The notes under the pieces: generated by a model
The model's database searches: none
Seen by the model: only the letters and a program-made list of their open reading frames with translations
Told to the model about the DNA's origin: nothing
Part shown: positions 32,157 through 35,141 of the stretch, piece by piece
Layout: each line of letters opens with the position of its first letter
How positions within the stretch are numbered: position 1 is the stretch's first letter
Program-made: the position numbers and the translations under genes
NCBI RefSeq assembly: GCF_021352225.1
Contig: NZ_JAAUVI010000008.1
Span: forward strand, 120,573-184,572
Direction: 5' to 3'
Length of the DNA stretch: 64,000 bases
Source: Methylobacterium sp. C25
Lineage (GTDB): Bacteria > Pseudomonadota > Alphaproteobacteria > Rhizobiales > Beijerinckiaceae

Positions 32157-32257
32157 GGCTGGCGGTCTCGTCGGCAAAGATGGGGGCCGCCACACTAACG
32201 GCCCGATGCACGGTCAGTAACCCGAGCATCTGCCCTTCTGCCAAAACACCGCACGCG

Positions 32258-32797
32258 ATGCTCGATCCCGCCACCATCGTTGCCACGCCCGCCACCGGGC
32301 GCGCCTGTGGCGCCTGCACGCTGTGCTGCAAGGTCTACGACGTGCCGGCCGTGGAGAGCGTCGCCGGTCAATGGTGCCGCCATACCAGGACCGGCAAGGG
32401 CTGCGGCATTCACGCGACGCGGCCCGACCATTGCCGCAACTTCCATTGTCTCTGGATGACCGAGAGCTGGCTCGGCCCGGAATGGAAGCCGGACCGCGCC
32501 AAGATGGTGCTGACGCTCGATCCGGTTACCCGCTTCATGAACGTGCAGGTCGACCCCGGCCAGCCGAACGGCTGGAAGCGCGAACCGTATTACGGCCAGT
32601 TGCGGCGCTGGGCCGCGGCTTCGCTGCCGCTCAAGCGCCACGTCCTGGTTCACGTGAACAAGATCACGACGGTGGTTCTGCCCGACCGAGACGTGCTGCT
32701 CGGGACCTTCGCCGACGGCGACCGCCTGGTCGCGCGCGAGCGGATGACGCCCTCCGGGCTGACGGCCGATGTCGAGAAGGTCGGCCTGTCCGCCTGA
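32258..32797 (+). CDS. YkgJ-like cysteine-cluster protein
   Basis: A 179-residue cytoplasmic protein with a metal-binding cysteine cluster at its N-terminus: CGACTLCCKVYDVP (near residues 18-31), WCRHTRTGKGCGIHATRPDHCRNF (split here as WCRHTRTG and CGIHATRPDHCRNF). This resembles the zinc/iron-chelating YkgJ family. The remainder has no catalytic motif that I recognise. Start ATG 32258 gives the typical short leader before the cluster. Function unknown; the conserved cysteines suggest a Zn or Fe-S site. Confidence 0.75.
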   Translation: MLDPATIVATPATGRACGACTLCCKVYDVPAVESVAGQWCRHTRTGKGCGIHATRPDHCRNFHCLWMTESWLGPEWKPDRAKMVLTLDPVTRFMNVQVDPGQPNGWKREPYYGQLRRWAAASLPLKRHVLVHVNKITTVVLPDRDVLLGTFADGDRLVARERMTPSGLTADVEKVGLSA

Positions 32798-32806
32798 AGC
32801 CGGGCG

Positions 32807-33187
32807 TCAGACCATGCAGCGGCCGGGCACCATGCGGCGTGCCTCGGGGCCGACGAGCGAGCTGAGCGGCGCCTCACAGCCTTCGCGTGTCATACGGCGG
32901 GGCTTCGGCAGCATCTCACGCTCGCTGGCGCTCTGCCCGACATTCGCAGGAGTGGTGCGCGGGGCAGGGCGCGCCTGTGACGTCTCGGAGGCCGTCTCGC
33001 GATGGATCGGGCTGATGGCCAGCGACGCCGGACGCGTGCCGGGAAGCGAGGTCGCGAGCCGGGCGGCGGCCGCAGCAGCCTGCGGAACGACCAGCCTGTC
33101 GGCGCTTGCACGCACCGAGGGAAGCACGAGGAGCGTGAGGATCGCTGCCGGTCCACCAACGCCGAGAAGGAAGCCAGACCGGAGCAT
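32807..33187 (-). CDS. small exported protein of unknown function
   Basis: A 126-residue protein with a signal peptide (MLRSGFLLGVGGPAAILTLL, cleavage near VRASA), a disordered middle rich in Ala, Pro and Ser, and a compact C-terminal segment (MTREGCEAPLSSLVGPEARR then MVPGRCMV) with two cysteines that could form a disulfide. Start chosen at ATG 33187 with TTGGAG upstream; an in-frame TTG lies five codons earlier. It is convergent to the YkgJ-like gene. A weak sigma-EcfG-like element lies 42 bases upstream. Confidence 0.7.
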   Translation of the reverse strand: MLRSGFLLGVGGPAAILTLLVLPSVRASADRLVVPQAAAAAARLATSLPGTRPASLAISPIHRETASETSQARPAPRTTPANVGQSASEREMLPKPRRMTREGCEAPLSSLVGPEARRMVPGRCMV

Positions 33188-33228
33188 CGCGATGCACTCC
33201 AAAAGAGAGCTTGACAGGTTGTCATTAC

Positions 33229-33253
33229 AACTCCGGTGCGTCGGCTCGGTTCC
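33229..33253 (-). promoter_or_regulatory. weak sigma-EcfG-like promoter (GGAAC-N16-AGTT)
   Basis: Read on the minus strand, GGAAC (33253-33249) is followed after 16 bases by AGTT (33232-33229), one base away from the CGTT consensus. It is about 42 bases from the start of the small exported protein gene. A matching -35 with a three-of-four -10 is suggestive only. Confidence 0.35.
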
Positions 33254-33398
33254 TCGACTGTTACGTTTCCGTTAAGCTTTCGTTTTCCGACCGTTTCGAC
33301 TTGATACCTGTAGTCTCTCCGAGCCCGGTTATCCCCGCTCTGCGCGTTGCAAAAATGCCGCGTCGATCAAAAATTTTGCGCAGCGGCTATCCATGGGA

Positions 33399-33423
33399 GG
33401 AACCGGCCGCGCCCGGTACCGTT
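33399..33423 (+). promoter_or_regulatory. perfect sigma-EcfG promoter of the putative stress sRNA
   Basis: GGAAC (33399-33403), 16 bases, CGTT (33420-33423): exactly the general stress response consensus found for phyR and nepR 1 kb away. No convincing ORF starts downstream; transcription would begin near 33430 and run into the terminator at 33488-33516. Confidence 0.75.
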
Positions 33424-33429
33424 GTGTCA

Positions 33430-33516
33430 TCACCCGGCCACCTGGTCCTCCCCGCATTCCCCTTGTGCATCGGCCGGAACCTCATCGACGGGCTGGAGAT
33501 TTCCAGCCCGTTTTTT
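33430..33516 (+). ncRNA. putative sigma-EcfG-dependent small RNA, GsrN-like
   Basis: A transcription unit of roughly 87 nt bounded by a perfect sigma-EcfG promoter and an intrinsic terminator. Its 5' half folds as a perfect 6-bp stem (CCGGCC 33434-33439 with GGCCGG 33472-33477) closing a 32-nt loop that is C-rich and unpaired, containing CCTCCCC (33447-33453) and TTCCCC (33457-33462). A short linker and the terminator hairpin follow. This layout (stress-sigma promoter, exposed C-rich loop, location next to phyR) is that of GsrN, the Caulobacter general stress response sRNA. Homology is inferred from architecture and synteny, not from alignment. Confidence 0.65.
33488..33516 (+). terminator. 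intrinsic terminator of the putative stress sRNA
   Basis: ACGGGCTGG (33488-33496) pairs with CCAGCCCGT (33503-33511) around an AGATTT loop and runs into six T residues (33511-33516). It points away from phyR, has no coding gene just upstream on the plus strand, and therefore marks a non-coding transcript. Confidence 0.85.
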
Positions 33517-33546
33517 CGTGCGCGCTGAGCGGCACACGGCATAACG

Positions 33547-33578
33547 AAAAGCCCCGGCGGATGATCCGCCGGGGCTTT
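33547..33578 (-). terminator. intrinsic terminator of phyR
   Basis: A 14-bp stem (33548-33561 with 33565-33578, AAAGCCCCGGCGGA and its complement) with a three-base loop. On the minus strand it follows the phyR stop by 35 bases and ends in a run of T residues. The symmetric A/T flanks could also let it work on the plus strand. Confidence 0.85.
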
Positions 33579-33613
33579 ATATGTCGAAGGAAACGTGGCG
33601 ACGCCCAAACGGC

Positions 33614-34417
33614 TCAGGCCGACTTCGCCTCGCGGCGGCGGGCGCTCTGCTGGAAGAACAGCGCCTGGCTGATCACCGCAGAGACGTTGGCGGGCTGGAA
33701 CGGCTTGGCGATGAGGAAAGCCGGCTCCGGGCGCTCGCCGGTGAGGAAGCGCTCGGGATAGGCGGTGATGAAAATCACCGGCACCTCGAAGGTCTTCAGG
33801 AGATCGTTGACGGCGTCGAGGCCCGAGGAGCCGTCGGCGAGCTGGATGTCGGCCAGGATCAGCCCGGGACGCTTGCCGTCGGATGCGAGCTTCACGGCCT
33901 CGGTACGGGTGCGGGCAACGCCGATCACGTTATGGCCGAGACCCTCGACGAGCGCCTCCAGATCCATGGCGATCAGCGGCTCGTCCTCGATGATGAGGAT
34001 GTCGGTGGCCATGTCGGCGGCGAGTTCGCGGCCGGCCTCGTCGACCAATTCGCGCACCTCGGTGACGTCCACGTCGAGGATGATCGCCGCGTCTTCCTCG
34101 GAGAAGCCCTCGAGGCAGGAGAGCAGGAAGGCCTGGCGCGGCAGCGGCGTGATCTGCCCGAGACGGATCTCGGCCGGAAGATCGTGCTGGACCTGCTCAC
34201 TGCTTCCGTTGACGGAGAGCGAGTTCCAGATGCGGGTGAAGACCCGGAAGAGATCGGCCTTGACGTTGGTGCTGCGTCCGAGCGTTTCCGGCTCGTTGAC
34301 CAGCGTTTCGAGCGTGGCGGCCACGTAGGCATCGCCGGCGACCTGACTGCCGGTGAGCGCCCGGGCGTAGCGGCGCAGATACGGCAGATGCTGCACGACG
34401 AGTTGTGCTGTCGACAT
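33614..34417 (-). CDS. phyR: general stress response regulator PhyR
   Basis: A 267-residue response regulator with the diagnostic PhyR fusion: an N-terminal ECF-sigma-like domain (about residues 1-130, beginning LVVQHLPYLRRYARALTGS) and a C-terminal receiver domain (about 138-255). The receiver has acidic residues 144-146 (IEDEP), phosphoacceptor Asp190 (LILADIQL) and Lys238 (IAKPF). When phosphorylated, PhyR binds the anti-sigma factor NepR through its sigma-like domain and frees sigma-EcfG. It is divergent from nepR with a 187-base shared region containing two back-to-back sigma-EcfG promoters, so it is under positive feedback. No sensor kinase gene is adjacent. Confidence 0.97.
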   Translation of the reverse strand: MSTAQLVVQHLPYLRRYARALTGSQVAGDAYVAATLETLVNEPETLGRSTNVKADLFRVFTRIWNSLSVNGSSEQVQHDLPAEIRLGQITPLPRQAFLLSCLEGFSEEDAAIILDVDVTEVRELVDEAGRELAADMATDILIIEDEPLIAMDLEALVEGLGHNVIGVARTRTEAVKLASDGKRPGLILADIQLADGSSGLDAVNDLLKTFEVPVIFITAYPERFLTGERPEPAFLIAKPFQPANVSAVISQALFFQQSARRREAKSA

Positions 34418-34461
34418 GAGTTCCCCTGAGCCTTCGCCGCTCTTCGTGTTGCTTCCGCCCT

Positions 34462-34486
34462 AACGCGAACCGCCGCGCTCCGTTCC
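34462..34486 (-). promoter_or_regulatory. sigma-EcfG promoter of phyR
   Basis: On the minus strand GGAAC (34486-34482), 16 bases, then CGTT (34465-34462). This is the exact general stress response promoter consensus, 45 bases before the phyR start, which has an AGGGGAAC ribosome site. Confidence 0.85.
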
Positions 34487-34496
34487 GCGCCCCAGC

Positions 34497-34521
34497 GGAA
34501 CTCGCGCCGAACCGAGGCGTT
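34497..34521 (+). promoter_or_regulatory. sigma-EcfG promoter of nepR
   Basis: GGAAC (34497-34501), 16 bases, CGTT (34518-34521). It is back-to-back with the phyR promoter, its -35 element only 10 bases from the phyR -35, and gives a leader of about 77 bases before the nepR start. Confidence 0.85.
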
Positions 34522-34604
34522 TCCGCACGAGCCATGACTCAAGTTCAGCCGTAAAACAATCACGGCCGACGCCGCTTCAGAAGGCGTCCAGGGGATCGAA
34601 CCGG

Positions 34605-34829
34605 ATGACGGAAGACAAGAAGGCCGGCGGCCTCCGCGCAGGAGGTTCGTTGACGGCCTCGCCTATGCCGGAGCCAGTCCGCCCACTCGGAAAACAGGCC
34701 CACCGGCGGATCGGTGTCCATTTGCGTTCGATGTACGAGTCCGTCGTTCAACAGCCGATCCCGAGCCGCTTCACCGATCTCATCGCCCAACTCGAGGACG
34801 GCCCGGCAGAGGCCTCGGATCAGCCGTGA
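34605..34829 (+). CDS. nepR: anti-sigma factor NepR
   Basis: A 74-residue anti-sigma factor. After a disordered N-terminus it has the diagnostic NepR helix pair: IGVHLRSMYESVVQQPIPSR followed by FTDLIAQLE. NepR sequesters sigma-EcfG in unstressed cells and is itself captured by phosphorylated PhyR. In most alphaproteobacteria nepR is followed by ecfG; here the next gene downstream is on the opposite strand and encodes a DUF1328 protein, so sigma-EcfG must be encoded elsewhere. Start ATG 34605 with GGGGA upstream. Confidence 0.93.
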   Translation: MTEDKKAGGLRAGGSLTASPMPEPVRPLGKQAHRRIGVHLRSMYESVVQQPIPSRFTDLIAQLEDGPAEASDQP

Positions 34830-34880: not shown

Positions 34881-35057
34881 CTACAGGGTCGGCGAGCGCC
34901 CGCGCATCAGGCCGATGACGGCCGAAATCGCGAACAGAACGATCGCGACGAAGAAGACGAGCTTGGCGGCTTCCATGGCCGTACCGGCGATCCCGCCGAA
35001 CCCGAGCAGGGCGGCGACCAGGGCGACCACGAGGAATGTTACGGCCCAACCGAGCAT
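34881..35057 (-). CDS. DUF1328 (YtjA-like) small membrane protein
   Basis: A 58-residue protein with two hydrophobic helices ([20 protein letters not shown] and [19 protein letters not shown]) linked by the [11 protein letters not shown] turn, the DUF1328 family layout. Function unknown; members are often induced by general stress in alphaproteobacteria. Start at ATG 35057; the longer frame lacks homologous character. A sigma-EcfG promoter lies at 35116-35141, and it is convergent with nepR, so it belongs to the stress neighbourhood. Confidence 0.9.
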
Positions 35058-35115: not shown

Positions 35116-35141
35116 AACGTCAAGGTTCGAGATACAGTTCC
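35116..35141 (-). promoter_or_regulatory. sigma-EcfG promoter of the DUF1328 gene
   Basis: On the minus strand GGAAC (35141-35137), 17 bases, CGTT (35119-35116). The spacing differs by one base from the phyR and nepR promoters but is within the reported range. It lies about 60 bases before the start codon. Confidence 0.75.

Follow-up and report, generated by a model that had tools for sequence, protein, structure and literature searches.

A conserved small-RNA gene beside phyR in Methylobacterium and its possible feedback on the PhyR-NepR switch

A small-RNA gene convergent with phyR

We analyzed a 64,000-nucleotide (nt) stretch of Methylobacterium sp. C25 DNA, referred to below as the window. 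It carries phyR and nepR, each with an EcfG-type promoter, and a small-RNA gene that is a convergent neighbor of phyR (Table 1). On sequence grounds, the segment 33399-33516 of the + strand holds the gene for a small RNA, which confirms, above chance, what an initial annotation of this DNA had noticed. The 5' half of the RNA is made up of a GC stem and a C-rich loop, and the 3' half of the terminator.

The elements named in the initial annotation were all recovered: the promoter GGAAC-N16-CGTT, the 6-bp stem CCGGCC/GGCCGG around a 32-nt loop with CCTCCCC and TTCCCC, and the terminator with six T residues. Its length estimate of about 87 nt needed a slight correction: the small RNA stood, but conservation places its 5' end near ACCC at 33432, giving about 85 nt. 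The phyR stop codon (ending at 33614), thought to be about 100 bases away, lies at a distance of 97 nt. The initial annotation saw no plausible open reading frame, and none is kept across 142 copies of the RNA: counted from the GTG of the core, the T-run lies in the three phases in 54, 45, and 43 copies.

Table 1. Features of the small-RNA gene and of the phyR-nepR locus, in window positions
Feature	Position	Strand	Basis
EcfG-type promoter GGAAC-N16-CGTT of the small RNA	33399..33423	+	motif at this place, kept in relatives
GGAAC box; 16-nt spacer; CGTT box	33399-33403; spacer; 33420-33423	+	read in the window
Small RNA, about 85 nt, noncoding	33432..33516	+	conserved block; 5' end placed by conservation
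Stem P1, 5' arm CCGGCC	33434..33439	+	pairs with 33472-33477; compensatory changes in relatives
C-rich loop, 32 nt, core UCCUCCCCGCAUUCCCCU	33440..33471	+	nearly invariant across four genera
First C-run of the loop, CCUCCCCGC	33447..33455	+	alignment
Second C-run of the loop, UUCCCCU, proposed phyR/nepR seed	33457..33463	+	complementarity to AGGGGAA (phyR) and AGGGGA (nepR)
Stem P1, 3' arm GGCCGG	33472..33477	+	folding and compensatory changes
Intrinsic terminator: hairpin from 33487 and TTTTTT at 33511-33516	33487..33516	+	covariation in relatives
phyR, convergent neighbor	33614..34417	-	Pfam PhyR_sigma2, PhyR_sigma-like, Response_reg
phyR Shine-Dalgarno AGGGGAA, proposed target	34421..34427	-	AGGGG conserved in the clade with the RNA
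EcfG-type promoter of phyR	34462..34486	-	promoter pattern match
EcfG-type promoter of nepR	34497..34521	+	promoter pattern match
nepR Shine-Dalgarno AGGGGA, proposed target	34590..34595	+	AGGGG conserved in the clade with the RNA
nepR	34605..34829	+	Pfam NepR, E 1e-14

The RNA is predicted to fold with -36.6 kcal/mol (z = -4.4 against shuffled sequences). No Rfam family scored above threshold in the window; 26 sub-threshold matches fell in 33200-33620, the best ones on terminator hairpins. No + strand gene was seen to end just upstream of the RNA. The nearest plausible one is at 32180-32797 and is followed by a - strand reading frame. The latter (32807-33202) encodes 131 amino acids (aa) and has no Pfam match. 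At many loci its relatives have an EcfG-type promoter approximately 40 bases before the start, and a near-match was seen by eye in the window.

The promoter pattern was matched four times in the window, against 0.90 matches expected, and four or more matches occurred in 3 of 100 shuffles. One match belongs to the small RNA; the other three precede phyR, nepR, and a small DUF1328 gene (ATG at 35057), whose promoter is at 35116-35141 (-). The consensus reported for M. extorquens is GAAC-N16,17-C/GGTT (PMC4814048). Among distinct copies of the RNA, which were found by their loop, GGAAC is present in 123 of 123 and is separated by 16-17 nt from a -10 box that reads CGTT in 115 copies, GGTT in 4, TGTT in 3, and CATT in 1. 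In an alignment of 50 copies, the two boxes stand out against a variable spacer. The promoter motif supports the view that an EcfG-type stress sigma factor drives the small RNA.

Conservation of the stem and loop

The initial annotation had proposed a comparison across Methylobacterium genomes. Of the 111 genomes of this genus covered by a DNA search, 110 have a match to the RNA body, with the stem and the C-rich loop conserved. Together with the promoter found in every distinct copy, this conservation is decisive for the reality of the gene.

In the first 50 sequences, the six pairs of stem P1 never vary, so their invariance proves nothing there about the stem. Across genera, the stem changes by compensation while the loop is kept: one genus has CUGGCC/GGCCAG, and a second copy in Microvirga has CGGCCCG/CGGGCCG. 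Among 135 rows (copies with a promoter-like box and enough flanking sequence), 127 have the standard stem and 4 a changed one; in the remaining 4 the script chose another pairing. The terminator helix is 100% paired over 48 distinct rows, with two pairs changed on both sides. We also considered an inner hairpin within the loop (GCAU/GUGC) and dropped it. This pairing is lost in one genus, so the C-rich loop, as judged from the alignment, is probably open and single-stranded.

The conserved 5' domain of the RNA measures approximately 51 nt, and conservation of the loop spans about 18-30 nt. In the 50-copy alignment, the sequence hardly varies from ACCCGGCC through GGCCGGAACCT; downstream of this stretch mainly the terminator is kept. 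Most copies contain two C-runs of four C each; the first run reaches up to six C in a few copies and is altered from CCUCCCCGC to CUCAACCGC in 2 of 50.

A loop scan of named genomes returned at least 117 stretches. The 80 stretches listed come from Methylobacterium, Methylorubrum, Microvirga, one Rhizobiales bacterium YIM 77505, and one Rhizobiaceae bin. When a 21-base loop was searched with up to two mismatches, it was found in at least 79 of 397 genomes of the family, a lower bound because copies with an extra C escape the search pattern; the hits fall into 5 of the 43 genera. One of these genera is represented by a lone two-mismatch match, which we take for chance; this leaves Methylobacterium, Microvirga, and two more. 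We also searched with a covariance model (R2), covering 397 genomes of the order and 289 of the class. Outside the genus there were only weak matches, and the loci inspected yielded no credible homolog beyond the family. The 31 weak loci inspected beyond the genus are terminator-like, and none of them has phyR or nepR nearby; three further weak R2 matches had no locus, and the searches concerned used stricter filters.

The place of the gene is kept as well. The RNA converges with phyR at a distance of 700 nt or less in 250 of the 251 fetched stretches that hold both, a redundant set with several stretches per genome. The exception (L419) is the second Microvirga copy, where the phyR match is confined to a receiver domain. 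No phyR was seen in a further 15 stretches that carry the RNA, some of them short or cut.

Two genomes deserve separate mention. In one Methylobacterium genome (G064; L394, L122), the RNA lies approximately 18 kb from phyR and still has its promoter (with the -10 box GGTT) and its loop. The second Microvirga copy (L389/L419; genome G1087, contig C8, - strand) has an EcfG-type promoter of its own; its stem is entirely different, and its loop core is unchanged. No PhyR-length match was found within the 10 kb read around it; a response regulator and a small heat-shock-type protein were noted by eye a few kb away.

Candidate targets of the loop

The initial annotation had suggested the leader of a molybdenum hydroxylase as a target. 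This candidate proved weak and was rejected: of 16 genomes, 7 have a homolog, and among the five closest leaders, the window's own included, two preserve the 9-nt complement GCGGGGAGG in full. A long target for the first C-run was also rejected. Allowing one mismatch, a search of six genomes with GGGGAGGACCAGG gave 119 matches, and the reversed control gave 89; six of the 119 are the RNA gene itself, exact matches are the RNA gene only, and the excess is at most weak.

The best candidate sites were found in front of phyR and nepR, an idea that arose after the data were seen. AGGGG is the reverse complement of CCCCU, part of the second C-run of the loop, and precedes the phyR start at the usual distance. 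In the clade with the RNA, all 100 distinct phyR leaders contain AGGGG and 99 contain AGGGGA (95 of 96 in a first count), whereas in other lineages the numbers are 8 and 2 of 37. For nepR, AGGGG is present in 108 of 117 distinct leaders of this clade versus 1 of 21 elsewhere, with nepR loci lacking any phyR match counted in the outside group. Here the clade was delimited by PhyR identity of at least 83%, not by an RNA found at each locus. Background genes of the same loci, called crudely by frame, GC content, and an SD-like motif, have AGGGG in 24 of 413 cases, despite more start codons tried per gene.

With gene calls of the same crude kind, restricting the count to genes with an EcfG-type promoter in these loci gave AGGGG for 45 of 45 phyR genes, 109 of 114 nepR genes, and 9 of 223 others, one of which is probably a misread phyR. 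The others mostly use GGAG (172 of 223), so the AGGGG site is no mark of the regulon at large. The extended AGGGGA is found in 77 of 114 nepR leaders; about 30% do not have the A after AGGGG.

We then considered the RNA and the phyR leader as pairs read in one locus. Among 88 distinct pairs, the perfect complement is at least 6 nt long in all and at least 7 nt in 67; the longest measures 6-9 nt in 87 pairs and 11 nt in one. In the window, it comprises 7 nt for phyR and only 6 nt for nepR. Opening of the two partners at the phyR site is predicted to cost 2.7 and 1.6 kcal/mol, compared with about -10 kcal/mol for the 7-nt duplex. Mean duplex energies for phyR leaders were -19.6 with the RNA and -15.8 without it, but the method allows long loops, and these values are hence no evidence. 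Since the RNA-bearing genomes form one clade, they are not independent, and the link between site and RNA is largely one event. AGGGG may be kept for its own sake as a ribosome-binding site. Natural loop variants in two genomes (G168 and G091) showed no compensating change in the phyR site.

Alphaproteobacteria depend on PhyR, NepR, and EcfG for their general stress response. We propose, giving it an even chance, that the RNA is EcfG-driven and acts back on the PhyR-NepR switch, with a block of translation as the probable means. Under stress, PhyR would capture NepR and EcfG would be freed; EcfG would then transcribe phyR, nepR, and the small RNA. Because all three carry EcfG-type promoters, the level of the RNA would increase in step with those of phyR and nepR. 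Its second C-run UUCCCCUU would pair with the AAGGGGA-type ribosome-binding sites of both mRNAs. As the proposed site is a Shine-Dalgarno sequence, we infer repression as the sign. By limiting translation of phyR and nepR, the pairing would act as a post-transcriptional brake on the partner switch or as a setter of the ratio of the two proteins.

If this is true, the response itself would produce a conserved RNA that fits the ribosome-binding sites of both phyR and nepR, and this RNA would constitute a direct feedback arm. The proposal is testable in Methylobacterium, since the RNA is present in nearly all searched genomes of this widely used genus.

The RNA could instead be an EcfG-driven effector of the GsrN type whose C-rich loop acts on numerous G-rich leaders among the stress genes downstream of the switch, with no feedback on the switch itself, in which case the AGGGG of phyR and nepR would be incidental. 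Promoter class, locus, stem, and C-rich loop are as in GsrN and its Rhizobiaceae relatives (PMC5869019), the two C-runs and the near-invariant core suggest several targets, and in Caulobacter GsrN reportedly has no feedback effect on stress-response transcription (PMC5869019). Against this stands, besides the lack of recognizable sequence homology beyond the family at the inspected loci, the behavior of katG, a GsrN target. It exceeded the cut-off in 10 of 16 genomes and is missing from 5 of 16. In 100-nt leaders, its longest complement to the loop is 4-6 nt in five genomes (5 nt in the window's own) and 6-8 nt in the other five, and AGGGGA is present at a possible katG start in 2 of 10. As a target, katG is doubtful: complementarity is mixed rather than conserved, and the window species' leader offers no more than 5 nt. 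Neither the molybdenum hydroxylase gene nor the other genes with EcfG-type promoters at these loci keep a site, whereas phyR and nepR do. What speaks for this alternative is that the five katG leaders with 6-8 nt of complement, which lies no more than 100 nt from possible starts, belong to a second type of katG. Overall, we regard the GsrN-type alternative as rather unlikely.

The second katG type itself (L402-L406) is 52-54% identical to the first and has G-rich leaders; an example of its complement is GGGGAATG in L406.

According to another view, the RNA activates translation of an ecfG paralog. This would explain the PhyR-dependent rise of EcfG3 in M. extorquens, which is reported at the protein level only and for which a small RNA was suggested as a possible cause (PMC4814048). 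We examined 30 ECF sigma loci, of 36 matches in three genomes. A ribosome-binding site complementary to the loop was found in 1 of the 30. On this count of ribosome-binding sites, the ecfG paralogs were dropped as targets, and we consider this explanation improbable.

The ecfG paralogs are numerous. In one genome (G000), nine matches with 52-100% identity to one EcfG-like core were found, which points to many paralogs; published counts are six for M. extorquens AM1 and as many as eleven within the genus (PMC4814048).

It is quite improbable, in our view, that the loop chiefly binds a protein or the ribosome as a C-rich decoy rather than specific mRNAs: its conservation does extend beyond the usual length of a seed, but such a function leaves unexplained why AGGGG sites are special to phyR and nepR. 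Finally, although terminators are common and a crude 122-aa reading frame overlaps the gene, we give practically no credence to the idea that this is only a terminator plus a chance promoter match, or else a short coding gene, given the promoter boxes, stem, and loop conserved in 123 copies, the lack of a kept frame, and the lack of a plausible + strand gene just upstream.

Relation to GsrN and similar RNAs

The initial annotation had called the RNA the Methylobacterium counterpart of GsrN. This holds for the promoter, the place, and the C-rich loop in a GC stem, so that the RNA is, by its sequence features, GsrN-like in promoter, locus, and build. It may or may not hold for descent: the covariance model, built on the RNA described here, gave nothing credible beyond the family at the inspected loci and no credible hit in the 289 genomes of the class.

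RNAs of the same build were sought at 40 phyR loci of other lineages, by scanning for an EcfG-type promoter with a C-rich stretch and then a terminator downstream of it. Six candidates were obtained. One was dropped because it runs into the phyR start (L204) and another because it looks coding (L231). The four kept, from two phyR copies of G119, from G404, and from G357, have the same build and unrelated sequences; the terminator in G357 is poor. Likeness of build is therefore no proof of descent. This result fits the literature, in which GsrN-like RNAs are seen as recurring at the phyR locus (PMC5869019).

At these loci in other genera (L203, L225, L210, L227), an EcfG promoter, a GC stem, a loop with 5-6 C in a row, and a terminator (poor in L227) were seen at phyR. 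At the second phyR copy of G119, the loop AACGCCCCC of the local RNA is a 9-nt complement of GGGGGCGTT, which lies directly before the phyR start, nearer than a usual Shine-Dalgarno sequence. At the first copy the match to the local RNA is 6 nt. No loop match was found at phyR in G404 and G357, where the start codons are less sure.

More broadly, the EcfG-driven RNA may represent a further arm of the partner switch that sets translation of the activator and the anti-sigma factor together, and RNAs of other sequence may co-evolve with their own phyR sites; we hold this wider reading tentatively, at a little short of an even chance.

Loops of a related kind are known from alphaproteobacteria. 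CcsR and the cuckoo RNAs expose a C-rich, anti-Shine-Dalgarno-like CCUCCUCCC loop; the likeness to the RNA described here is by description only, and their locus and sigma factors are different.

GsrN-like RNAs have been predicted at phyR of Rhizobium, Sinorhizobium, Brucella, Rhodopseudomonas, and Bradyrhizobium, those of the Rhizobiaceae on the basis of locus, promoter, and transcription (PMC5869019). They share the locus, the EcfG promoter, and the C-rich loop with our RNA. Methylobacterium, Methylorubrum, and Microvirga do not appear in the main text of that paper, and no publication naming the RNA was found in the open-access literature. Judged by these sequence features, the RNA joins the stress-sigma-driven RNAs with C-rich loops located beside phyR and forms a separate loop family, set apart from the GsrN-like predictions by their description rather than by published sequences. 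Measured against the descriptions in PMC5869019, the predicted target pair phyR/nepR is new for this group of RNAs.

The comparison with Caulobacter GsrN is the closest (PMC5869019). GsrN is approximately 100 nt long and the RNA described here approximately 85 nt; both are driven by the stress sigma factor, here as judged from the promoter motif, and both have a C-rich loop in the 5' half. GsrN lies near phyR in most Caulobacteraceae, and our RNA is likewise located at phyR. GsrN is stabilized by Hfq and cut to a 5' isoform; its stable 5' piece measures 51-54 nt, similar to the conserved 5' domain found here. The loops differ: GsrN has six C in a row, a trait not seen in most of our copies, which have two shorter C-runs instead. 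The wiring would differ as well. GsrN is reported without feedback on stress-response transcription, whereas phyR and nepR are the best candidate targets of the Methylobacterium RNA; if the proposed feedback is real, it sets this RNA apart from Caulobacter GsrN.
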